Assembly: GCA_022564935.1 (NCBI GenBank)
Contig: JADFKM010000020.1
Location: 1-31,696, forward strand
Origin: Candidatus Dadabacteria bacterium
GTDB taxonomy: Bacteria > Desulfobacterota_D > UBA1144 > Nemesobacterales > JADFKM01
Direction of reading: 5' to 3'
Length of the DNA stretch: 31,696 nt
The position numbers and the translations under genes were made by a program. This document shows positions 1-31,696 of this stretch, one piece after another (position 1 is the stretch's first letter; every line of letters starts with the position of its first letter). The notes beneath the pieces were generated by a model. That model was not told the origin of the DNA, did not search any database, and saw only the letters and a list, made by a program, of their open reading frames with translations.

Positions 1-767
1 GCGTTTCCAGAAAGCACGGCATGGGTGCAGCACAGAGTGACCCGTTTTGCCCCTTCTCTGGAAAGGGCCTCGGCCGCCTTAACGGCCGTTCCCGCCGTGT
101 CCACTATGTCGTCCACTATGACGGCCGTTTTCCCGCTTACGTCCCCGATGACGTTCATTACCTCAGCCTTGTTCGGGGACGGGCGCCTCTTGTCTGTGAG
201 CGCAAGACCGGTGTGGAGCGCCTTGGCGTAGAATCTGGCCCTCTCGAGCCCTCCCGCGTCGGGCGACACAATCGTGAGCTGGTCGTCCGCGTAGTGTTTG
301 TTGAGGTAATCGATAAACACTGGGGATGCGTAGATGTGGTCCACGGGCACGTCGAAGAAGCCCTGAATCTGGCCGGCGTGCAGGTCGACGGTAATCACCC
401 GGCTTACCCCCGCTTTGAAGATGATATCGGCGATGAGCTTTGCCGAGATTGGGGAGCGGGGAAGCACCTTCCTATCCTGTCTAGCGTATCCGTAATAGGG
501 GATTACCGCAGTGATATCAATTGCGGAGGCCCTTTTAAGGGCGTCTACCAAAATCAGCAGCTCCATTAGGTGCTCGTTCACCGGGGGGCAGGTCGACTGG
601 AGCACAAACACGTGCGCTCCCCTGACGCTTTCTGAGATTTCCACGCTCACTTCACCGTCGCTGAACCTCTTTATTGATGCTTTCCCCGGGACGGTTTTCA
701 GGTAACTGCATACCGCCTTGGACAGGGGGATGTTCGATGTCCCGCTGAAGATCTTTGTTCTATTCAT
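1..767 (-). CDS. prs: Ribose-phosphate pyrophosphokinase (PRPP synthetase), 3' end cut by window edge
   Basis: Transfers pyrophosphate from ATP to ribose 5-phosphate to make PRPP for purine, pyrimidine, histidine and tryptophan synthesis in the cytosol. The reverse strand reads from ATG at 767 without a stop to the window edge, 255 complete codons of a usual length near 310. Recognisable parts in order are the N-terminal FSDGE segment, the YYGYARQDRK loop that binds ATP and ribose phosphate, the metal-site segment VDLHAGQIQGFF, and the PRPP-binding loop VIVDDIVDTAGT near residue 220. The start is the first ATG in frame with the family N-terminus (MNRTKIFSGTSN). No clear Shine-Dalgarno sequence precedes it, but a good promoter lies 60 bases upstream. 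It is divergent from the oxidoreductase gene at 900. The family call is secure; the C-terminus is outside the window. Confidence 0.95.
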   Translation of the reverse strand, partial: MNRTKIFSGTSNIPLSKAVCSYLKTVPGKASIKRFSDGEVSVEISESVRGAHVFVLQSTCPPVNEHLMELLILVDALKRASAIDITAVIPYYGYARQDRKVLPRSPISAKLIADIIFKAGVSRVITVDLHAGQIQGFFDVPVDHIYASPVFIDYLNKHYADDQLTIVSPDAGGLERARFYAKALHTGLALTDKRRPSPNKAEVMNVIGDVSGKTAVIVDDIVDTAGTAVKAAEALSREGAKRVTLCCTHAVLSGN

Positions 768-826
768 TATAAATTACATAAGAAGGGGAAAGCCGTCACC
801 AGTTTTATAATCCAATAAAAAAGTCT

Positions 827-854
827 ATTATATAGAAAGGGGAGAATAATTCAA
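827..854 (-). promoter_or_regulatory. Predicted sigma70-type promoter of prs
   Basis: Reading leftward, TTGAAT (849-854) is followed after 16 bases by a perfect TATAAT (827-832). Transcription would begin near 820, giving a leader of about 50 bases before the prs ATG at 767. This is a motif match by eye only. Confidence 0.5.
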
Positions 855-899
855 GTATCTGAACTCGCGTGAATCCCCTTCCATGAAGGAGGCGGTTTT

Positions 900-1337
900 T
901 TGGTAAAACCCACAACGCAAGAGCTCGAGTTCATTAACTCCTGCAGGGTCGGCAGGCTTGCCACGGTGGATGAGGAGCGTAGGCCGCACCTCATCCCTGT
1001 ATGCTACGTCTTCTCAGGCGGCATATTCTACACGCCCATCGACAACAAGCCCAAGCGGGCCAAGCCGTCCCGCTTAAAGAGGATGCGCAACATCTCGGCA
1101 AACCCCAACGTAGCGGTTGTTATAGACCGTTGGAGCGAGGACTGGGAGCGACTGGGGTATGTGTTTGTGTCGGGCAGGGCTGATATTATCTCCACAGGAG
1201 GGGAGTACCGCCGCTCTCTCGGTCTTCTCGAGGCCAAGTACCCGCAGTACGAGAGGATGAATCTGGGAGGCCTTGGCCTTCCGGTCATAAAGATAGTGCC
1301 CGATAGGCTCGTGTCCTGGGGAGCGCTCGGCGGCTAG
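900..1337 (+). CDS. PPOX-class split-barrel oxidoreductase, Rv0121-like, probable F420 or FMN enzyme
   Basis: A 145-residue member of the pyridoxamine 5'-phosphate oxidase-like split-barrel fold. The N-terminal strand pattern GRLATVDEERRPHLIPVCYVF, followed by KPKR near residue 50, an NISANPNVAVVIDRW segment and EDWERLGYVFVSGRA, resembles the Rv0121 group thought to use F420 or FMN. Substrate and cofactor cannot be read from the sequence. The start is TTG at 900, supported by AAGGAGG at 886-892 seven bases upstream; the nearby ATG at 883 runs into a stop after seven codons. The gene ends in a 4-base tail-to-tail overlap with eda. It stands alone on its strand, so the context says little about its role. 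Confidence 0.8.
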   Translation: MVKPTTQELEFINSCRVGRLATVDEERRPHLIPVCYVFSGGIFYTPIDNKPKRAKPSRLKRMRNISANPNVAVVIDRWSEDWERLGYVFVSGRADIISTGGEYRRSLGLLEAKYPQYERMNLGGLGLPVIKIVPDRLVSWGALGG

Positions 1338-1960
1338 CCTCTGAGCCAGTTTACCCGCTCGACGGCTCGTTTTGCGTTTTCCCGTATGTCTTCGGGTGAG
1401 GCCCCTCCGTCGCTTCCGAAAAGGGAGCTCCAGAGGCCTACGGCCGTAGCCCCCATATCGATGTACTCAAGGAGGTTAGAGTTGTTCACCCCCCCCGTTG
1501 CTATGATGGGAATAAACGGCAGGGGGTCTTTTATTGCTTTTATGTAGGCCGGCCCGCCCGCCTGAGCTACGGGAAACACCTTCACCATGTCGGCTCCCAA
1601 GTCCCACGCCTGAACTATTTCGTTGGAAGTGAAGGCGCCGGATACCACCAGCAGGTCTTTGCTCTTCGAGAACGATATTATGTCCTTGTCGGTATGGGGA
1701 GACACGATGAACTCCGCCCCCCTCGAGGCCGCTATCTTGGCAAGGTCTACGTTGAGCACCGTTCCGGCGCCTATGTGCGCCTCGCCCCTCTTCGAAAGCT
1801 CCCCTATCACACCCTCGGCCCCGTCGAAAGAGAAGGTGACCTCGATGAGCCTTATCCCCCCCTCGATACAGGCCAGCGCGCATTCCATAGCCCTGCCCGG
1901 CTCCTCGGCCCGTATCACGGCAAACACCCTGTGAGCTTCCACCGCCTTCATCAGGCTCAT
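1334..1960 (-). CDS. eda: 2-keto-3-deoxy-6-phosphogluconate (KDPG/KHG) aldolase
   Basis: A class I aldolase that splits KDPG into pyruvate and glyceraldehyde 3-phosphate (Entner-Doudoroff pathway) or acts on related keto acids. The 208 residues match the usual length. Visible landmarks are R17 in VIRAEE, the catalytic-base glutamate E40 in LIEVTF, the phosphate-binding GAGTVLN near 64-70, the Schiff-base lysine K127 in MVKVFP, and IATGGVN near 153. The start used is ATG at 1960; ATG at 1950 (fourth residue) is possible, and neither has a clear Shine-Dalgarno sequence. No edd or other Entner-Doudoroff gene is adjacent, so the physiological substrate (KDPG, KHG or a DgoA-type sugar acid) is open. 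Confidence 0.88.
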   Translation of the reverse strand: MSLMKAVEAHRVFAVIRAEEPGRAMECALACIEGGIRLIEVTFSFDGAEGVIGELSKRGEAHIGAGTVLNVDLAKIAASRGAEFIVSPHTDKDIISFSKSKDLLVVSGAFTSNEIVQAWDLGADMVKVFPVAQAGGPAYIKAIKDPLPFIPIIATGGVNNSNLLEYIDMGATAVGLWSSLFGSDGGASPEDIRENAKRAVERVNWLRG

Positions 1961-2204
1961 ACATTTAAAAGTAACAGTAACTCAGGGGGTGACGCAAGGG
2001 ACAAAACTTTTGTGGTTTCATTATTATGTCTTTTCCGGCAGTCGGTGCATAGCCCGAAAGGATAATCGCTAAAGGGTTTAGGAGGGCATATACAATGGTA
2101 AGCGAAAATGAGCTGGGGGGTCGTATAAGGACTAAACCGCTTATATTTACGTTGTTCGGACTCTCAAAGCCCTTTGTATAGAGAGGGGGGGAGTGCAATA
2201 GTTC

Positions 2205-2777
2205 CTACTTCTTCTTTGCCCTCTCAAGATACTTCCCCGTTCTTGTGTCCACCCTTACCGCCGTGCCGATGTTCACGAATAGCGGCACGGTGACCACTGC
2301 GCCGGTCTCTAGCGTCGCAGGCTTGGTTGCGCCCGTAACCGTGTCCCCCCTAACGCCGGGCTCGGTTTGGGTGACCTCAAGCTCAACAACGGTGGGAAGC
2401 TCCACGTCTATGGGCTTTCCGTCGTAGAAGTTAAGCTGCAATTCCTGCTGCTCCTTGAGGAACTTGCGTGCGTCCCCCACGGTGCCTGGGCCCACTGCGT
2501 ACTGCTCGTAGTTCTCGGTGTCCATGAAATGGAACCCTATGTCGTCGGTGTAGAGGTACTGAACCGGCCTTCTCTCGACGTCAGGCGTTGTGAACGTCTC
2601 CCCTGAGCTGAAACTCATCTCCTGCACGGCGCCTGTCTTTATGTTCCGAAGCTTTGTCTTCACCACCGGCCTTCTCTGTGCAACCTTTGAGTGGGCGTAC
2701 TCCATTACCTCCCAGATTTCGCTCTCCACTATTATTTTAAGGCCCTTGTGAAAGGCCTTGGTCTCAACCAGTCCCAT
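2205..2777 (-). CDS. efp: Translation elongation factor P
   Basis: Rescues ribosomes stalled on polyproline by entering next to the P-site tRNA. The 190-residue length and three-barrel layout are normal: KOW-like N-domain (about 1-65), OB domain (about 68-130, with YLYTDDIGFHFMDTENYEQ) and a C-terminal OB domain ending VDTRTGKYLERAKKK. The oddity is the N-domain loop: where most EF-P proteins have HVKPGKG with modified Lys34, this one reads HSKVAQRR with Gln34. This suggests function without lysine modification, or a different modification. ATG at 2777 has a GGAGG about 10 bases upstream. It is last in the minus-strand run after mutL, gmhA, the siroheme gene and the broken yacG. Whether it shares their transcript is not known. 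Confidence 0.95.
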   Translation of the reverse strand: MGLVETKAFHKGLKIIVESEIWEVMEYAHSKVAQRRPVVKTKLRNIKTGAVQEMSFSSGETFTTPDVERRPVQYLYTDDIGFHFMDTENYEQYAVGPGTVGDARKFLKEQQELQLNFYDGKPIDVELPTVVELEVTQTEPGVRGDTVTGATKPATLETGAVVTVPLFVNIGTAVRVDTRTGKYLERAKKK

Positions 2778-2833
2778 TGCTGCCGTTCCTCCGTGGGTAT
2801 GTGGTTTTGTATTGCGGGGGTGTGCGGTGCGGG

Positions 2834-3025
2834 TTACGAGCCGGAGTCCCGCTCATCTGCCGTTGAGCTTCCCGGCTTCTCTTCAGCCTGATCGTCCTCT
2901 ATGACTTACTCTCCGTCCATACAGGCCCTGAAGTCAACGAGCTTGCACCTCTTGGAGCAAAAAGGCCTCCACCGTTCCCTTCCCATTGTGTGAGTTTCGT
3001 GCAGGCGGGACACTATTACCTCCAT
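2834..3025 (-). pseudogene. yacG: Decayed yacG (zinc-ribbon DNA gyrase inhibitor), two frameshifts and a stop
   Basis: YacG is a roughly 65-residue zinc protein with CPxC and CxxxC pairs that binds GyrB. Here its parts lie in order on the minus strand but in different frames. ATG at 3025 gives MEVIV; the CPACTKLTQWEGN segment (3012-2974) is in a second frame; RWRPFCSKRCKLVDF (from 2974) returns to the first frame; a TAA at 2908-2906 sits where the family has GEY; and an acidic tail VIEDDQAEEKPGSS continues in frame to TAA at 2836-2834. The frames are reconciled by a 2-base loss in a GT repeat near 3011 and a 1-base loss near 2974, and restoring them plus the stop gives 64 residues. The intact open frame (2906-3025, 39 codons) lacks the first cysteine pair. 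Sequencing error cannot be excluded. Confidence 0.7.
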
Positions 3026-3065
3026 AACGGCTGAAATTATGTATAAGGGGGTGGGATAAATCAAG

Positions 3066-3731
3066 TCACTCGGCGCTTTTTCCGGGGAATACCCCAAGCC
3101 CCTTAAGGTCTATCCCGACTGCTGTCTTGATTCGCTCTTCCACTCCGGTGTAATCGCCGCTCCGAAGCAGTGAGATGATTTCTGCGATGGGTATTTGCTT
3201 GTAAATGCACTCCCAATCTTCGGGTGAAGCGGCTTTGACGGCGATCCTGAGCGCGCCCAGCACCTCAGCGGCCATTTCGTACTCCTCCCCTATCGTTCGC
3301 TCTAGCTCCTGTCTTAGGTGCTTTGAGAGGGCAGGGCTACTGCCTCCCGTGGAGGCGGTTATCATTACGTCTCCCCTTCTGAGAACCGAGGGAGTGGTGA
3401 ATATGGAGTCGCCTGTGGATGTGGCGACATCTACGAGTATTCCAAGGCTCTTTGAATGCTCAGCGATTCGTGTGTTGAGTGCCCCCTCTCCTGTGGCGGC
3501 GAATACGAGGAACGCCCCTTGGAGGTCTCCGGCTCTGTATTCCCTGTCCACATGCTCGATTGCACCCGTTTTTGCAAGGCTCTCAAGCCACGCAGTTAGA
3601 GTAGGGCTTATCACCGTAACGGACGCGTCGCACTCAACGAGCCCCTTTACCTTCCTCTCCCCCACCGGGCCGCCGCCAACTACTACGCAGCGGATACCGT
3701 TGATGTTGATGTTTATTGGGTAGTATTTCAT
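3066..3731 (-). CDS. Precorrin-2 dehydrogenase / sirohydrochlorin ferrochelatase (Met8/CysG-N type)
   Basis: Oxidises precorrin-2 to sirohydrochlorin with NAD+ and, in many members, inserts iron to make siroheme. The 221 residues hold a Rossmann domain with the NAD motif VVVGGGPVGERKV (16-28), then a dimerisation segment with the family signature STGGSSPALSKHLR, and a helical C-terminal part. It lacks the CysG methyltransferase half. The usual VVDAP stretch with the catalytic aspartate reads LVDVATSTGDS here, so the aspartate is retained only if a small insertion follows it. The ATG overlaps the gmhA stop by 4 bases, implying translational coupling. Siroheme genes normally neighbour sulfite/nitrite reductase or hemA; sitting between gmhA and yacG is unusual. 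Chelatase activity is inferred only. Confidence 0.82.
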   Translation of the reverse strand: MKYYPINININGIRCVVVGGGPVGERKVKGLVECDASVTVISPTLTAWLESLAKTGAIEHVDREYRAGDLQGAFLVFAATGEGALNTRIAEHSKSLGILVDVATSTGDSIFTTPSVLRRGDVMITASTGGSSPALSKHLRQELERTIGEEYEMAAEVLGALRIAVKAASPEDWECIYKQIPIAEIISLLRSGDYTGVEERIKTAVGIDLKGLGVFPGKSAE

Positions 3732-4318
3732 CGCTTCAAGGACCCCTCGGCGCTCGAGAACGCCTCTTCGGCCAGCTCGCAGATGATGTGGGCCACCGTG
3801 ATGTGTACCTCCTGTATCCTGGGTGTAGAGCGGGAAGGGACCTGGATGGCTAAGTCCATGAGGTCTTTCATCTTATCGCCCGTTTGTCCCGTAAACCCAA
3901 TTGTGTGCAGGCCTAGCTCCCTTGCGGTTTTCAGCGCGCTTATGACGTTGCGCGATTTCCCGCTTGTGGATATGGCCCATGCGATATCTCCCTTTTTCCC
4001 CAGCGCCTCTATCTGTCTTGAGAAGATATGGGAGAACGAGGAGTCGTTACCGATGGAGGTGATAATGGAGGTGTCGGTCGTCAGTGCTATTGCAGGGAGG
4101 GCCCGCCTTTCTCTTTGGAAGCGGTTGATGAACTCGGCTGCTATGTGCTGGGCGTCTGCGGCGCTTCCGCCGTTTCCGAAAAGCAGTATCTTCCCCCTGG
4201 ACTTGAGGGCTTTAATGACCAGGTTCGCAATATCTTCCACCACATCCGCCGATTCCTTGGCTAACCGGAGTTTAAGCTCTGCGCTTTCTCGAAGGTGTGT
4301 AATAATGGTCTGTTTCAT
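3728..4318 (-). CDS. gmhA: Phosphoheptose isomerase (sedoheptulose 7-phosphate isomerase)
   Basis: Converts sedoheptulose 7-phosphate to D-glycero-D-manno-heptose 7-phosphate, the first step to the heptose of LPS core. A single SIS domain of 196 residues, normal for the family. Visible motifs are FGNGGSAADAQHIAAEF (48-63, with E62 matching the catalytic glutamate), the phosphate-binding STSGKSRNV (117-125), and IQEVHITVAHIICE, where Q169 and H177 match conserved active-site residues. The ATG lies three bases after the mutL stop and the gene overlaps the siroheme gene by 4 bases, so it is inside a tight operon. DiaA-type SIS proteins are relatives, but the catalytic residues favour GmhA. Confidence 0.88.
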   Translation of the reverse strand: MKQTIITHLRESAELKLRLAKESADVVEDIANLVIKALKSRGKILLFGNGGSAADAQHIAAEFINRFQRERRALPAIALTTDTSIITSIGNDSSFSHIFSRQIEALGKKGDIAWAISTSGKSRNVISALKTARELGLHTIGFTGQTGDKMKDLMDLAIQVPSRSTPRIQEVHITVAHIICELAEEAFSSAEGSLKR

Positions 4319-4321
4319 GGC

Positions 4322-6163
4322 TCAGGTTCTCTTGAACATCCGCTCCAGCTCGCCGAAGGTGATTTCCCTGGCCACGGGCCTTCCGTGGGGACAGGCATGG
4401 GGGAAGTCGCACCTGTCGAGCTCTTCGAGCAGCGCCCTGATTTTCTCTCCCTCCAGTACGTCCGAGGCCCTTATAGAGCTGTGGCATGCCATGGTGGCTA
4501 TGACTTTGTCGATGAGGGCGCTCATGCTCTTTTCCCCCTCAAGCTCCCCAATCTCCCCCAGGATGTCCCTGATAAGGCCTTCGGGCTGCGTGATCGCAAG
4601 CAGCGCCGGCACAGACCGTATCCTGATGGAGTTGTCCCCGAACTCCTGCGCCTCGAACCCCAGCGTAGAGAGCTCTCCCAGGCATCCCCTGGCAAGCTCG
4701 GCCTCGCTTGGGGAAAGCTCCACTACTACGGGTATGAGCAGCTCCTGCGTTTCGAGCCTGCCGCTCAGGTAGGAGCGCTTGAGCCTCTCGTAGTTTATCC
4801 TTTCGTGTGCGGCGTGCTGGTCTATGATTACGGCGCCCCTTCCGGGAGACTCGCAGATTATAAAAAGCCCGCCCACCTGTCCGACTACCCTCATTGAGGA
4901 AAAGTACCCCCCGTCGCGGTCGAGCAGCTCCCCATCGCCTACAAAACCGCTTCCGGGCGGCTTCGGCCCAGGGGGATATTCTGATGTGTGCCCTGAGGCT
5001 TCTTCGGCGTGGTAAGGTGCTGAGTGATGTTCGTGTGCCTCGAAGGCGTCTATTCTATCAGCTTTGTAAACGCCGTGCTCTTCGTGCGCGCTTTGACTGT
5101 AGCGGATATTCTCGGTATAAACGCCGCCGGTGGGAGACTCGGAAGCATGAACACTGCGGGCGTAATCCCCTACCCATGGGGCGTTCTCTATCATTTGCGC
5201 CACGGCTGAGCGAATCAGATCCCCTACGAGGCGGTACTTCCTGAACCTGACCTCCGCCTTGGCGGGGTGTACGTTAACGTCTACCTGGCTCGGGGGGAGG
5301 TCTATCATGATAACGCCCTGCGGGTACTTTCCCCTCTCTAAGAGCCTGCCGTAGGCGTCGGTTGCCATGCGGGTAATATACCTGTCCTTTACCGCTCTCC
5401 CGTTAACGGATATATAGAGCTTCTGCGAGGTTGTCCTTGAGCTGTCGGGCTCTCCAAGGTAACCCGATACCCTCGTATTCTCGTTCGGGGCTTCGGCCTC
5501 GAATGGGTGAAGCTCGGCCTCACCCCAGAGCTCCTTTATCCTGTCTTCAGCCGATTCCCTGCCGGGCAGGCGAAAAAGAGCTCTGCCGTCGCTTATGAGC
5601 TCGAAGCCGACTCCGGTGCTCGAGACCGCAAGACGCTGCAGGACGTCCACGGCTTGGCTTAGCTCTCTCTCGCGGCTCCTCATGAACTTGAGCCTGGCGG
5701 GGGTGTTGAAGAAGAGGTCTCTTACCTCTACTGTGGTTCCGTGGGGACATCCCGTCTCTTCGACCCTCTTTACCTTGCCCCCGTTGATGGTAATCCTGGT
5801 TCCTATCATGGAGCCCGGAGTTTTGGTGATGAGCGTGAACCTGGAGACGCCCGCTATGCTCGGAAGGGCCTCTCCCCTGAACCCCAGGGTGCGGATGTTT
5901 TCAAGCTCGGCCGCGCTCCGGAGCTTGCTGGTGGAGTTGCGCTCAATGGCAAGCAGGGCTTCGTCCCTGCTCATGCCAGGGCCGTCGTCGGTGACCTTTA
6001 CGAGCCTCCTCCCGCCTCCCCTAAGCTCAATACGAACAGAGGAGCTTCCGGCGTCGAGGGAATTTTCCACCAGCTCCTTGAGGACGGAGGCCGGCCTCTC
6101 CACTATCTCTCCGGCGGCTATTTTGGATACCAGCTCGTCGGGTAGGATCCTTATCTTGCCCAT
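4322..6163 (-). CDS. mutL: DNA mismatch repair protein MutL with nicking-endonuclease motif
   Basis: Couples MutS mismatch recognition to strand incision. The 613 residues start with a GHL ATPase domain: ELVENSLDAG (30-39), DDGPGM (59-64) and TLGFRGEAL (92-100). A variable, charged linker (about 330-420) precedes the C-terminal domain. That domain has the metal-binding motif DQHA(x2)E(x4)E at 448-459, ACHSSIRA, and CPHGRP near the C-terminus. These mark an endonuclease-type MutL, expected in bacteria without MutH. It is the first gene of a tight minus-strand run with gmhA. No mutS is in the window. The ATG at 6163 has no Shine-Dalgarno sequence; a TATATA box (6169-6174) lies five bases away, so a leaderless or very short-leader transcript is possible. 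Confidence 0.95.
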   Translation of the reverse strand: MGKIRILPDELVSKIAAGEIVERPASVLKELVENSLDAGSSSVRIELRGGGRRLVKVTDDGPGMSRDEALLAIERNSTSKLRSAAELENIRTLGFRGEALPSIAGVSRFTLITKTPGSMIGTRITINGGKVKRVEETGCPHGTTVEVRDLFFNTPARLKFMRSRERELSQAVDVLQRLAVSSTGVGFELISDGRALFRLPGRESAEDRIKELWGEAELHPFEAEAPNENTRVSGYLGEPDSSRTTSQKLYISVNGRAVKDRYITRMATDAYGRLLERGKYPQGVIMIDLPPSQVDVNVHPAKAEVRFRKYRLVGDLIRSAVAQMIENAPWVGDYARSVHASESPTGGVYTENIRYSQSAHEEHGVYKADRIDAFEAHEHHSAPYHAEEASGHTSEYPPGPKPPGSGFVGDGELLDRDGGYFSSMRVVGQVGGLFIICESPGRGAVIIDQHAAHERINYERLKRSYLSGRLETQELLIPVVVELSPSEAELARGCLGELSTLGFEAQEFGDNSIRIRSVPALLAITQPEGLIRDILGEIGELEGEKSMSALIDKVIATMACHSSIRASDVLEGEKIRALLEELDRCDFPHACPHGRPVAREITFGELERMFKRT

Positions 6164-6397
6164 GATCTTATATACCGAGCCCAGGATGTTTTAGAACACA
6201 GTTTAAATCAAAATCGCCCATAATAAAATCGCCTAGCCAAAACCGCTCCTTCCGAGCTATATACCCTTTCGGGGCTCCATTTGCAAAGCCGGGCAGGGGG
6301 GGCGTGGGTGTTCGGAGAAGTCGGCAGGGTCGGGGAGAGGAGATCGCAGACGGATAGTTTATACGAAAAAACACGAGGTCCCTAAATTATTACTCCT

Positions 6398-6751
6398 CTA
6401 ACCGGAGTTCATTACTTTTGTAAACCTCTCGAGGAACGATTGAAAGTGCTCTTCCATCGGAAGGTCGTAAGACAGTTGCCTGTCTATTGTTACCTCTCTC
6501 GGGCAGGCGTCGTCGTCCGGCTCAGGGTCTATCGCTATTGCGTCCAGTTTGGGGGCCTTGTTGAGCATCCAGTCGAACAGGTCGAATAGCTCCATGTGCA
6601 CCACCTCCGCAGGCACCGATGCGTACCGCTCCCAGTTCTTCAAATAGGACTCCATCTTTCGCTCTTCGGTGAACACCATTATTGCAATGTCTCCTGATGC
6701 GGTATTGGTAGTTCCTATCTCACCCATGAGCGTACGGCAGAACACCTTCAT
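6398..6751 (-). CDS. Uncharacterised 117-residue protein, possibly SseB-like
   Basis: Not firmly recognised. The sequence has no signal peptide or membrane segment. The middle (GDIAIMVFTEERKMESYLKN, about 20-39) followed by LFDLFDWMLNKAPKLDAIAIDP weakly recalls SseB-type domains, which read as a strand pair, a turn with Ser/Thr-Glu, then a variable helix and a hydrophobic strand ending in NP or DP. This is a resemblance by eye, not a match. The second half is acidic (EPDDDACPRE). ATG at 6751 has GGAG eight bases upstream. It is followed upstream on the same strand by a 52-residue membrane protein 76 bases away. The 234 bases between it and mutL show no gene. Confidence 0.6.
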   Translation of the reverse strand: MKVFCRTLMGEIGTTNTASGDIAIMVFTEERKMESYLKNWERYASVPAEVVHMELFDLFDWMLNKAPKLDAIAIDPEPDDDACPREVTIDRQLSYDLPMEEHFQSFLERFTKVMNSG

Positions 6752-6827
6752 TTTCGGTACTCCGGATCAAGCGTGGTTTTTCCAGCCCTGTCATATCGCC
6801 TTTGAGCCCGAGTACGAACAGCGCCGT

Positions 6828-6986
6828 TTACAAAAGCTTCATCAGAAGGGCGACGGCAATGACTAGCAGGGGCAGCGCCACGGCCCCCAGGGTAAACAGG
6901 ACGTAGAAGGGCAGCGCCTTCTTTGCCCCTACGCCGTAGACGTCCCCGGATTGCCGCTCGATCGCTTTACGGAGCTTCTTTACCAT
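6828..6986 (-). CDS. Small single-helix membrane protein, 52 residues, unknown
   Basis: Reading leftward from ATG at 6986, the frame encodes MVKKLRKAIERQSGDVYGVG, then a hydrophobic stretch starting LPFYVLFTLGAVALPLLVIA and ending KLL, and stops at TAA 6830-6828. A positively charged amphipathic start followed by one hydrophobic helix (about residues 25-50, with a central Pro) predicts an inner-membrane protein with a cytoplasmic N-terminus. An AAGG lies about nine bases upstream of the ATG. No family is recognised. Support is the clean start, the coherent charge and hydrophobic pattern and the position between an uncharacterised gene and an intergenic space; a chance frame is possible. Confidence 0.5.
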   Translation of the reverse strand: MVKKLRKAIERQSGDVYGVGAKKALPFYVLFTLGAVALPLLVIAVALLMKLL

Positions 6987-7346
6987 AACCTATAACCTTA
7001 TTTTACCCGTGTTCGTTTTAAAGGTGGTAGTGCCTTAGGGTTAGGGAGAGACGTGAGGGGGGTAGGGCCCGGTGTGTCCGAATAGACGGGGGTTTATCTG
7101 TAGATTTTTCCTTACCGATGTACTAAGTCCCTCAGGCGTGGAAACGGCTCTGCTTCCCTCCGGAGCGCTCGAGAGTGTTTTATGCCGGAGCTTTGAGGGT
7201 TGAGCGGAAGCCTCGTTACCGCCGAGGGGAATAAAAAAAGTTCAATGCCCCGAATTTTTATGTATACTGGATTAAAGATCCGTGTAGCCGTTTATTAATG
7301 GTGGGTTATAATACAATTTAATGCCAGCAGGGGAGCAATAGCAAAG
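6987..7346. other. 360-base intergenic region between divergent genes
   Basis: No convincing gene. The last 80 bases are AT-rich and contain a perfect TATAAT at 7307-7312, about 35 bases before the TTG start at 7347, but no good -35 box stands 16-18 bases before it. This is the likely promoter of the exported-protein gene. Nothing else is recognised. Confidence 0.5.
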
Positions 7347-8705
7347 TTGAGGAAATCCTTTTATATTTTTTGTAGTTATGGTAGGCCGTTGGCGGTCGTT
7401 CTGTCAGCGGTTCTGGTGTTTTCCCTTCTTCACACCGATGCATTGGCCAGGGCGAAGAAAAAGCTCAAAGAGGAAACCCCTAAGAGGGCCTTGAAGATAA
7501 GGGACTACAAGTGGGGAGGCGGAGGAAGCGGAAGGCCCGGTATCTTAAAGGAGATAACCATAGAGAATACGGGCAAGCTGGCCTATGGAACCATTCAGAT
7601 AGAAGCTGAGTTCTACACAATGGATGACCGTCCTCAAGGCTCTCTGCGCACCACGATCAGGGAGGTTCTGGAGCCGGGCGTTACAAAAACGTTCTACAAC
7701 CTCAGCTTCGGAATCATGCACTCTCCCCTGGAGAAGAGCACCCTGAGGGTGGCCTCGGCAAAGACTTTCACAACCGGGCCGGGCTCGATGCCCAATCCGG
7801 GGGAGCTTGTGAAAGTTGTGGAGTGGAAGTGGGCCGGAGGGCTGTATGGTACGGTGGGAATACTCGAAGCAATCACGCTCAATAACACGAGTGAGAAGAC
7901 CCTGAAAAACATTGAGCTTGCGGTTGAGTATTGGGCCGGGAATATAAAAAAGGGCTACACACGCGTGTTCATCCAGGACATCATCTCCCCGAAGGGCACT
8001 AAGACCTTCCACGGTGTAAACGTAGGGTTCAGACACCCGGAGGCCACAAAAGCCGTTATCTCGGTTATCGGTGTGGACGAGGCAAAGGTTAAGAAAAAGG
8101 AGATCGTGCGTAAGCTTGTGAGGAGGAAAAAAACGAAGCAAAAAGGTGTCGCTGTCGGAGAAGGGGAAAGACCTGCGTGGGAGGAGCCCGATTTGGGGGA
8201 GGAGTCTCCTACGGCAAGGAGAAAGAGGCTGATAATCCAAAAGAGGACACGAGAGCAAACAGGCCCCGCCGCGCCGCCCTCCGTAGCCCGGGCCCCCGGG
8301 GAGATTGCCAAGGGGACTATGGCGCAGGGCCGTTCCCTCGAGCCCGAAGACGAGGGTGAGGAGTATATAGAAGTTGAAGAGATCGAAGTAATAGAAAACC
8401 CCATACCCGACCAGGACATCATCGTCAGAAGCTTCGTAATGGGCAATACGATTCCCTACACCATAGGATATCTCGATAGGCTCACTCTTGAGAACATAAG
8501 CACCATCACATACAAGCGTATAGCCATTACAATCGACTTTTACTCGCGAAGCGACAACAGGCCCCTTGCCTCGAGCAGGATAGTGATACCCGAAGTTATT
8601 CCTCCAAACAGCAAGAAAACATTTAAAAAGGTGATGGTGGGTTTCCTCAGCATAAAGCCCGAAGTGGTCGTAATTCGTGTGGAAGGCGCCTCAGTGGTTA
8701 GGTAA
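7347..8705 (+). CDS. Exported protein with three copies of a beta-rich domain (FxLYD-like)
   Basis: Function unknown. The N-terminus has basic residues and a hydrophobic segment (about 14-29) ending near ALARA, a probable signal peptide. Three related segments follow: about 48-142, 153-248 and 357-452. Each carries the pattern Gly-Ile/Tyr-Leu-x-x-[IL]-T-[IL]-x-N-x-[ST], a strand with an aromatic residue (EAEFY, AVEYW, TIDFYS), then xEVxxPxxxKTF and a closing FG/VGF strand. This is the layout of a small beta-sandwich, like FxLYD domains. Between copies two and three lies a charged linker (about 249-356), first basic then acidic. TTG at 7347 has a GGGGAG 11 bases upstream. The gene precedes the GGDEF protein by 73-139 bases on the same strand, so a shared signalling role is possible but unproven. 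Confidence 0.8.
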   Translation: MRKSFYIFCSYGRPLAVVLSAVLVFSLLHTDALARAKKKLKEETPKRALKIRDYKWGGGGSGRPGILKEITIENTGKLAYGTIQIEAEFYTMDDRPQGSLRTTIREVLEPGVTKTFYNLSFGIMHSPLEKSTLRVASAKTFTTGPGSMPNPGELVKVVEWKWAGGLYGTVGILEAITLNNTSEKTLKNIELAVEYWAGNIKKGYTRVFIQDIISPKGTKTFHGVNVGFRHPEATKAVISVIGVDEAKVKKKEIVRKLVRRKKTKQKGVAVGEGERPAWEEPDLGEESPTARRKRLIIQKRTREQTGPAAPPSVARAPGEIAKGTMAQGRSLEPEDEGEEYIEVEEIEVIENPIPDQDIIVRSFVMGNTIPYTIGYLDRLTLENISTITYKRIAITIDFYSRSDNRPLASSRIVIPEVIPPNSKKTFKKVMVGFLSIKPEVVVIRVEGASVVR

Positions 8706-27800: not shown

Positions 27801-28775
27801 ATGGTTTTATCTATTCTAAAGAAGTATATTTGGGTCATTAATCTGGCTCTGCTGGCGGGAGTTTCCTACAGCGTTGCCGGGCTCATAAACAACAACATCG
27901 CTCAATCGATCTACCCGCTGGAATTTCAGGCCGGCCAAACCCAGGACTCCGTTGCCGCGAACAGGAGACACGCTTACCGTTCCTCCAGGCGCAAGTCCAA
28001 GCAAACCTACGACGTCATAATGGACAGGAACCTTTTCGGTGTTGAAGATCCTTTTGGAAGCAATGGCGGGCCATTGGGTCAGGGAGTGAATGCTCCCAGA
28101 TCCACTCTAAGGGTCGAGCTTCTTGCCACGAGCATCAGAGTTGCCAGGGAAGAGCAGTCTGAGACGGGAATGATGTTGATTACCAAGGAAAGAAAATCGA
28201 AGGCCGTTATCAAGAACCTTGACACCGGGAAAATAAAGAGTTACACCGAGGGCGATAAGATAGACATCATCACGAACGAGTCGGTGAAGCTCCTTCAAAT
28301 CGAGAGCTGCCGGGCGGTCATCAGGAGACCCACGGGCAGGGAGGCTATTGAGTGTAAAAAGGATTTGAATACCAAATCAGTGGTTAATGTTGCCACCCCT
28401 CCCAGAAGAAACCCCGGGTTCAAGAGCCTCAGTAAACACGAAGGGGTAGTGAGGATTGATAAAGACCATTTCGAGGTTGACAGGAAGCTGCTTGACGAGA
28501 AGTTGAGCAATCTTGGCACGCTTTTATCGGAAATCAGGGTCATCCCCGAGGAGGACGGGCTCAAATTCGTGAAAGTCACCAGGGGCAGCCTTTTTAACAG
28601 CATTGGTATTAGGAGAGGGGATATTCTGCACCGAATAAATTCTGTTGAACTATCCAACGTTACTAACCTTGAAGACGCCCTCAGTGTATTCGAAGAGTTG
28701 AGAGGACAGGATAATTTCACTCTGGATATCACCCGTCGTAGCAAGAAGTACACCTTCAAGTATACTGTTAAGTAA
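27801..28775 (+). CDS. gspC: Type II secretion inner-membrane linker protein GspC, PDZ type
   Basis: Connects the inner-membrane platform of the type II secretion system to the GspD channel. The 324 residues show a short cytoplasmic start, one membrane helix (about 10-32), the family motif MDRNLFGVEDPF near 73-84, the HR (homology region) domain (about 95-190) that contacts GspD N0, a linker, and a C-terminal PDZ domain (about 240-322, with GLKFVKVTRGSLFNSIGIRRGD and LHRINSVELSNVTNLEDAL). The length is typical. It is followed 148 bases later by gspD on the same strand, the usual order. ATG at 27801 precedes the membrane helix directly; no ribosome site is obvious. Confidence 0.88.
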   Translation: MVLSILKKYIWVINLALLAGVSYSVAGLINNNIAQSIYPLEFQAGQTQDSVAANRRHAYRSSRRKSKQTYDVIMDRNLFGVEDPFGSNGGPLGQGVNAPRSTLRVELLATSIRVAREEQSETGMMLITKERKSKAVIKNLDTGKIKSYTEGDKIDIITNESVKLLQIESCRAVIRRPTGREAIECKKDLNTKSVVNVATPPRRNPGFKSLSKHEGVVRIDKDHFEVDRKLLDEKLSNLGTLLSEIRVIPEEDGLKFVKVTRGSLFNSIGIRRGDILHRINSVELSNVTNLEDALSVFEELRGQDNFTLDITRRSKKYTFKYTVK

Positions 28776-28858: not shown

Positions 28859-28923
28859 TGGAGCGTCTGTATACCAGTTGAAAACGTATCCTTATCAAAC
28901 TGTTGAGCAGGGGAGTGATGTGT

Positions 28924-31686
28924 ATGTATTTAGTAAGCCCTCGTTTAGCTTTGTTCGCGGTGCTGGCTTTTTTTTTGGTCTCGCCTGACTGCCGGGCTAT
29001 GTTCGGCTCTCTAGACCGGACGCCGTCGAGCAGCGGCGATTCCATTAAGGGCGCTCCCGCAGGAGGCAATGTCTTCCCCCATCAGCCCACAATTGATGCT
29101 TCCGTAGTCGTGACACAGTCTTACGAAGCGGTGCCTCCCGTCTCCCCCCGGAATGGAGAAGGGGTAGGAGAGAAGGATGGGGGAGATGACCCGGACACCG
29201 AAGAGGGGTATGTCGCAGAAGATACGGCGGCGCAGACAGCACCCCCTACTTATGCGGAAACCGACACTGAAGAGCCGAATTCAGATGAACGGGACGAGGA
29301 ACCTAAGAGCATCGACCGGCTGCGCCGTGAGAGGATAGAGAGGTCCAGAAACCGGTTAGAACGCATCAAGGAATTAGGGGGGAAGTCCGGGAGCTCTAAA
29401 AGGACTGAAAGACCCCTCGCTCCCAGGGGCGCCCAGCCCGCTCCACCGTCCTCTGCTTTAGCTGCCGGGGAGACCGTCGACGATGAAGACGTGATAACTA
29501 TCAGCTCTGAGATGAGCATCGGCGACCTGATTCAGCTAATGAGCGAGCTCACAGGCGAAGTGTACCTGCCGGATGAGTCCGTAAAGACAAAGAGGGTTAC
29601 TATAGTAGCTCCTCACGGAATTATGGGGAAAAACGCTAAGCGTGTTTTCGATGCTATCCTCGACCTCCACGGCTTCTCCATCGTGAAAAAGGGCAGTGTG
29701 AACCTGATAGTTCCCAAGCGCGATATCAAGACCCAAAGCCTGCCTCTTGAGATGGGCGATGCCAAGTCCGATACTTCCGACCGGTTCGTGACCCGAGTCG
29801 TGCAGCTTAAAAACCTGAGCGCCTCTGATGTGGCAACCACGCTTCGTCCGTTTGTTTCTAAAGAAGGCGACATAGTGGCCTATCCCAGCTCGAATACCCT
29901 GATAATTGTGGAGATACAGTCCAACCTTAGAAGGCTCCTTGATCTCATCGACAACATTGATGTTAAAACGGTTGTCGAGTTTATCAAGATTCAAAACATG
30001 GAAGCCGTCGAGATGGCGGAGAAAATCGTCGAGATATTCGGCGGCGGAAGCACGGCCACCGTTCCCAGGGCTTCCAGTCGGGCATCGGGCTCCGCAGCCG
30101 TGGCCCAGCGCCAGAGGGCGTCCAGAGAAAGGCGCACCACCGGCCGCGCGGCCAGGGCTCAGGGCACGGGAGCCCCGGGACAGCAGTTCTATCTGGGATT
30201 CAAGATAGTGATAGATGAGAGGACAAACACACTGATAATCACCGCCCACGGAGATGATTTAAAAAAGATAAAGGCCATAATAAAAAAATTGGATGTCGAA
30301 GTGGATCAGCCCGAGCAGGGGATTTACGTTATCCGCCTTCGAAATGCCGATGCGGATCAAATGGTCAGCGTCCTCTCGAACCTCATCTCCGGCACAGGCG
30401 GAACGACCTCCCGTGGGAGGACTCAGCGGACTACGACTCCCCGAACAACCACAAGGGGCGTTCTTACCGGAACGACGACCGGCAGGAGGGGCTTATCGCA
30501 AACCGGCGACTTCTCTGCTCTGAGCAGTAGCGCAATCCAGCGGCAGTTAAGTCAGGGCGGAGGAATTTCTGCCATCGTGGCCGAGGCCGACGGGCTCAGG
30601 ATCACGGCCGACTCCGCTACGAATTCCATAATTATCATAGGCTCCAGGAAGGACTACGAAATAATTGTATCGGTAGTAGACCAGCTGGATATTAGGAGGA
30701 AGCAGGTGTTTGTCGAAGCCGTTATTATGGAAGTGAGCCTCGACCAGCTCCGCTCCGTAGGAGCGAACTTGAGCCTGGGTTTTACCTTCAACAACGACAA
30801 CCTGGGTTTCGGGGGCAGCTTGCTTCCCGGAGTGCCGAGCCTCCTGGGCATCGCCGCCTCGTCCGAGGCGGCGATTTCGCTGCTAGGCGGCCTGTCGGGA
30901 CTGTTCCTCGGCGTGATCGGGGAAGAGATAGACCCCGACGGCTCGGGGCCGATTCCACCCATTCCCTCGTTCAGCGCTATCTTCCAGGCGCTGACCTCGC
31001 TAACGGATGTCAACATACTATCAACCCCCAGTCTGCTCACGATCGACAACGAAGAGGCTGAGATAGTCGTTGCGGACATCATACCGTTTCCCACTGGAAC
31101 CACAATTGGGACTAGCGGCGTGACCGTTCAGACCATCGACCGTCAGCCCGTAGGTATCAGGCTTGCAATTACCCCCCAGATAGGCGAGGGGGATTACCTT
31201 TACCTCAACATACGCACCGAGGTCTCCGAAGTGAGACAGGCAACGGTGCCGGGGCTCAATACACAGGAATTCGGTATCGCCACCACTACACGCACTGCTG
31301 ATTCGTCTGTGATCGTCAAGGACGGCCAGACGATCGTCATCTCCGGCATCCTGCGCGACCAGGAATCCAAGGTCGAGCGCAAGGTTCCGTTCTTCGGCGA
31401 CCTCCCGCTGATCGGTGCGTTGTTCACCTCGATCGACACCCAGCAGACGCGCACGGAGCTCATCGCCTTCATCACGCCGTTCATCGTCGAGAACCCCGAC
31501 GAGAACGACGACAACTTCAACGCGGACGCGCGGCAGCGCCTCCTCGAACTCAGCAAGCCGCTGGACGACCAGGTCGTGACGGCGATCGACCCCGAGAAGG
31601 TCAAGTCGCGTCTCCTGATGGAGCGGTACAAGCAGTACACCGAGCGAGACAGCAGGCCCGCCAGGCCCGACCGCGACGGCGAGTGA
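28924..31686 (+). CDS. gspD: Type II secretion outer-membrane secretin GspD
   Basis: Forms the outer-membrane channel for folded periplasmic proteins. ATG 28924 is chosen (AGGGGAG eight bases upstream) over ATG 28918 and TTG 28903, giving 920 residues. A signal peptide (about 1-22) is followed by an acidic, Pro-rich segment of about 160 residues that is unusually long. Then come N0 (about 188-272), N1 (about 287-350, FVTRVVQLKNLSASDV), N2 (about 350-455) and N3 (about 465-600), the last two with Thr/Arg/Gly-rich loops. The secretin core (QVFVEAVIMEVS to LIAFITPFIVEN, with VPFFGDLPLIGALF) closes it. The last 378 bases (from 31309) have sharply different codon use from the rest. The stop lies 10 bases before the window end. 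Confidence 0.94.
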   Translation: MYLVSPRLALFAVLAFFLVSPDCRAMFGSLDRTPSSSGDSIKGAPAGGNVFPHQPTIDASVVVTQSYEAVPPVSPRNGEGVGEKDGGDDPDTEEGYVAEDTAAQTAPPTYAETDTEEPNSDERDEEPKSIDRLRRERIERSRNRLERIKELGGKSGSSKRTERPLAPRGAQPAPPSSALAAGETVDDEDVITISSEMSIGDLIQLMSELTGEVYLPDESVKTKRVTIVAPHGIMGKNAKRVFDAILDLHGFSIVKKGSVNLIVPKRDIKTQSLPLEMGDAKSDTSDRFVTRVVQLKNLSASDVATTLRPFVSKEGDIVAYPSSNTLIIVEIQSNLRRLLDLIDNIDVKTVVEFIKIQNMEAVEMAEKIVEIFGGGSTATVPRASSRASGSAAVAQRQRASRERRTTGRAARAQGTGAPGQQFYLGFKIVIDERTNTLIITAHGDDLKKIKAIIKKLDVEVDQPEQGIYVIRLRNADADQMVSVLSNLISGTGGTTSRGRTQRTTTPRTTTRGVLTGTTTGRRGLSQTGDFSALSSSAIQRQLSQGGGISAIVAEADGLRITADSATNSIIIIGSRKDYEIIVSVVDQLDIRRKQVFVEAVIMEVSLDQLRSVGANLSLGFTFNNDNLGFGGSLLPGVPSLLGIAASSEAAISLLGGLSGLFLGVIGEEIDPDGSGPIPPIPSFSAIFQALTSLTDVNILSTPSLLTIDNEEAEIVVADIIPFPTGTTIGTSGVTVQTIDRQPVGIRLAITPQIGEGDYLYLNIRTEVSEVRQATVPGLNTQEFGIATTTRTADSSVIVKDGQTIVISGILRDQESKVERKVPFFGDLPLIGALFTSIDTQQTRTELIAFITPFIVENPDENDDNFNADARQRLLELSKPLDDQVVTAIDPEKVKSRLLMERYKQYTERDSRPARPDRDGE

Positions 31687-31696
31687 TCACTCGGAT

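Follow-up and report, generated by a model that had tools for sequence, protein, structure and literature searches.

A gspD gene at a Candidatus Dadabacteria contig end very probably continues, in frame, into the secretin gene of another organism

The gspD gene of this Candidatus Dadabacteria genome lies at 28903-31686 as one open frame of 927 codons, and over its last stretch the codon usage changes abruptly. The first-pass annotation had described this switch from codon counts, and the counts were reproduced: of the 125 sense codons between 31309 and the stop, 119 have G or C in the third position, isoleucine is encoded by ATC in 10/10 codons and phenylalanine by TTC in 6/6, and arginine is mainly CGC or CGG (CGC 5, CGG 2, AGG 2, CGT 1, CGA 1). 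Directly before the border, in 31141-31308, 23/56 codons end in A or T. The frame is unbroken across the border and the secretin motifs carry on, both in the open frame itself and in the alignment. If the protein reads on so smoothly, why should its codon style change from one codon to the next? The window, by which we mean the whole stretch of DNA analysed (31,696 bases), spans contig C102 from end to end, in a genome assembled into 104 contigs totalling 1.99 Mb. The window end, 10 bases past the gspD stop, is accordingly also the contig end, and it lies 388 bases after the border. The features of gspD and its flanks are the following, all on the plus strand.

27801..28775, plus strand: GspC-like gene upstream of gspD that carries a PDZ-like domain; its Pfam matches are weak and stay under the gathering cut-off, and its codon style is native (GC3 0.61)
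28903..31308, plus strand: native part of gspD, beginning with the N0 domain and taking in most of the secretin domain (TIGR02517; identity to same-order relatives)
31309..31341, plus strand: switch zone, 33 nt coding for VIVKDGQTIVI (DNA alignments, alignments to each relative and protein alignments)
31309..31686, plus strand: foreign tail, matching a secretin gene of planctomycete type at its 3' end (identity to L035:2215-2592, described below)
31687..31696, plus strand: final 10 bases of C102, past the stop, over which the match to planctomycete sequence persists (DNA alignment)

The position of the border was assessed with a one-changepoint scan of GC3 along all 927 codons of gspD, with 500 shuffles of the codon order as the null. 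The single best break fell exactly at codon 31309: it raised the log-likelihood by 31.4, whereas no shuffle gained more than 11.3. The step is also exceptional among relatives: GC3 changes by +0.28 at 31309 in the window, compared with a mean change of +0.02 (SD 0.05, maximum 0.09) at the homologous codon of 26 same-order GspD genes. The encoded protein scores 467 bits against TIGR02517 (GspD, the secretin of type II secretion), for which the curated cut-off is 351; the sequence scored is the hybrid.

Searching genome contigs with the tail protein identified a secretin gene on the Planctomycetota MAG contig JADFOJ010000100.1 (L035). The tail shares 82% amino acid identity with it over all 125 residues. 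At the DNA level, the tail is about 90% identical to L035:2215-2592 from 31309 as far as the stop codon, and the next 10 bases match as well; it is there that the next gene of L035 begins, its GTG start overlapping the TGA. Over the 120 bases preceding 31309, DNA identity to L035 is only 22-32%, no better than chance. The L035 secretin is thus like the window in the last 125 codons and the 10 bases beyond, and unlike it in all sequence upstream. The exact donor species is absent from the collections searched, in which the best match is this one of 90% DNA identity: no closer donor was found in 101 genomes around the L035 genome, where the next best match reached at most 61% amino acid identity, and all matches among the plasmid records searched with the tail were below 60%. 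A search of the window's own genome for the planctomycete's next gene, carried out without a positive control, returned no match, a result of little weight. A change of codon usage native to the 3' end of gspD, caused by translation, an overlapping gene or a local GC effect within the same organism, would fit the differing codon style, and that style is the one observation in its favour. We give this explanation practically no credence: the relatives show no GC3 step, the kinship of the protein switches at the very same point, and the DNA identity of 90% between the tail and a planctomycete secretin already refutes it.

The kinship of the protein was compared on the two sides of the border. 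Residues 1-802 (28903-31308) have the domain order of the same-order GspDs (TIGR02517), and residues 561-802 are 64-76% identical to these proteins, whereas their identity to L035 is about 24%. From about residue 803 on, the window is unlike the same-order GspDs and belongs to another lineage, with about 37-50% identity to them and 82% to L035. Separate trees built from the parts before and after 31309 placed head and tail in different parts of the secretin tree. In the head tree, the window fell inside a supported set (98) with 18 same-order GspDs, and a grouping of the window with L035 was rejected (p-AU 1e-74). In the tail tree, for which the comparison set was 20 secretins from the L035 genome and related genomes, the window and L035 formed a pair (support 91) that lay among planctomycete-like secretins; the clade holding the window in the head tree was rejected (p-AU 0.003). 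The tail alignment comprises 66 usable columns, and no placement finer than this is claimed. A one-clade test, in which the window was united with all native or all planctomycete rows, was uninformative because the window can sit on a long branch joining both groups; the narrower test was decisive. Identities and trees alike assign different phylogenetic origins to the two sides of 31309. Judged from these sequence comparisons, the cause of the codon-usage switch is a change of organism, and the distance between the two groups suggests that the two sources belong to different phyla.

The protein alignment allows the switch to be placed more narrowly. To its left the window reads GIATTTRTADSS, which is of the native type. 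Directly after this comes VIVKDGQTIVI, which is common to the native and planctomycete types, and to the right of it the window is planctomycete-type, SGILRDQESKVERKVPFFGDLPLIGALFTSIDTQQTRTELIAFITP..NPDENDDNF, at a place where the native type would be expected to read IGGLVQDRES..NKVPLLGDIPLFGNLFKFKQ..KINLMILLTPRIVEN..DMQ. With GIATTTRTADSS native, VIVKDGQTIVI shared and SGILRDQESKVERKVPFFGDLPLIGALFTSIDTQQTRTELIAFITP planctomycete, the switch therefore lies within the 33 bases 31309-31341. Within them, the 26 nt at 31312-31337 are identical to L035, and the longest run shared with any of 26 same-order relatives in the switch stretch is at most 12 consecutive bases. The planctomycete-type tail occurs in none of the same-order relatives compared.

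These findings make it very probable that the last ~388 bases (31309-31696) are another organism's DNA, joined artefactually to the native contig as an in-frame chimeric end. The join was probably made outside any living cell, by the assembler or as a library chimera, through the short shared stretch. An assembly path through the metagenome would have left the native gspD within the stretch coding for VIVKDGQTIVI, entered the secretin 3' end of a co-occurring high-GC planctomycete and run on for a few hundred bases, and the contig would then have stopped there, inside planctomycete-like sequence. The intact reading frame of the tail was counted against an artefact. Frame and motifs run on smoothly since the two genes, secretins both, are aligned at a motif that is conserved. 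Inter-genome misassemblies are known to occur at conserved sequences common to different organisms (PMC9661791, the metaMIC paper), and cross-organism joins are recognised by differing phylogenetic profiles on their two sides (PMC7111523, "Accurate and complete genomes from metagenomes"). The present case resembles those misassemblies in that pieces with different phylogenetic profiles seem to have been joined at a conserved stretch, in this instance where a contig ends; it differs from them in that the frame is kept and that a complete-looking protein passes the TIGR02517 GspD cut-off.

If the contig end is chimeric, where is the rest of the native operon? The best gspE in the same genome was found on the contig C17 (L044; 7,618 bases). 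It starts 38 bases from the contig end, and the operon runs away from that end:

C17 (L044) 78-7580, minus strand: remainder of the type II secretion (T2S) operon, consisting of gspE, gspF, gspG, a gspH-like gene, further pseudopilins and a gspK-like gene, identified beyond gspE by reading the sequences

The genes of this operon have GC3 values of 0.57-0.74, which is the native style, and they constitute the native continuation elsewhere in the assembly. A gene resembling a MoxR-type AAA ATPase, read from the sequence, follows the operon on C17. In 25/25 relatives gspD and gspE are adjacent, the distance from the first base of the gspD stop codon to the start of gspE being 4-28 bases. Since gspE follows gspD so closely in the relatives and C17 starts at gspE, the native 3' end of gspD should lie in the gap that separates C102 from C17. 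The gspD genes of the relatives continue for about 90 codons from the homologous point to the gene end, and the missing native piece, running from the switch on C102 up to where C17 begins, would thus measure some 240-270 bases. Of the 3 frames of the 38 nt that precede gspE (L044:7581-7618), none gives a clearly native GspD C-terminus like that of the relatives; these bases may be the native gspD end or a diverged spacer. A search of the same genome for the native gspD 3' end elsewhere returned only a distant second secretin on C27. This second secretin (C27:28051-29178; G000; L032, L033) shares about 30% identity with GspD in the secretin domain; one TAA was counted within its extended match, which may simply be the gene end.

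The first-pass annotation had offered two readings of the switch, a chimeric contig end and recombination with the gspD of a high-GC relative. The former is strongly supported by a contig that ends in planctomycete-like sequence and an operon that resumes at gspE on C17. The latter is not supported as worded, the source being a planctomycete-type secretin about 24% identical over the preceding domain. In a broader form, homologous or illegitimate recombination in the cell could have replaced the last ~125 codons of gspD with those of a planctomycete and produced a working hybrid secretin. The preserved frame and the continuity of the secretin motifs would suit such an event. We nevertheless regard real recombination as very unlikely, since the foreign DNA continues beyond the stop codon until the contig ends, and there enters the beginning of the next planctomycete gene, and since the native operon is taken up again on a separate contig, from gspE onward and with native codon usage. 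No native sequence resumes on the same molecule, which ends 10 nt past the stop, and no same-order relative has such a tail. With about 24% amino acid identity over the preceding domain and no DNA similarity upstream of the motif, the homology available for recombination would therefore be limited to a few tens of bases. Equally improbable, in our view, is the same event seen from the protein, namely an in-frame exchange of the C-terminal segment (the C-terminal extension together with the last part of the secretin domain) yielding a functional hybrid GspD.

Within the reading of an artefactual contig end, and counted as part of its probability, the join could also be a physical chimera, in which template switching during PCR or amplification in library preparation created the hybrid molecule and the assembler only recorded it. 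The switch lies in a conserved, partly identical stretch, a kind of site that template switching would favour too. Chimeric molecules of this sort are usually scarce relative to the true ones, and we hold this route to be possible but rather unlikely.

The hybrid gene is almost certainly an ordinary artefact. The observation of the switch was correct and sharp, and its use is confined to that of a warning on the gene model. Since the frame is kept and the TIGR02517 cut-off is passed, gene-level checks would miss the join, and a hybrid that scores well as GspD would enter the databases as a single gene. The case also illustrates that a GC3 step taken together with a change of nearest kin can, with no reads at hand, narrow the position of an in-frame chimera to about 30 bases. 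For this genome, 31309-31696 is unsuitable for comparative or evolutionary work.
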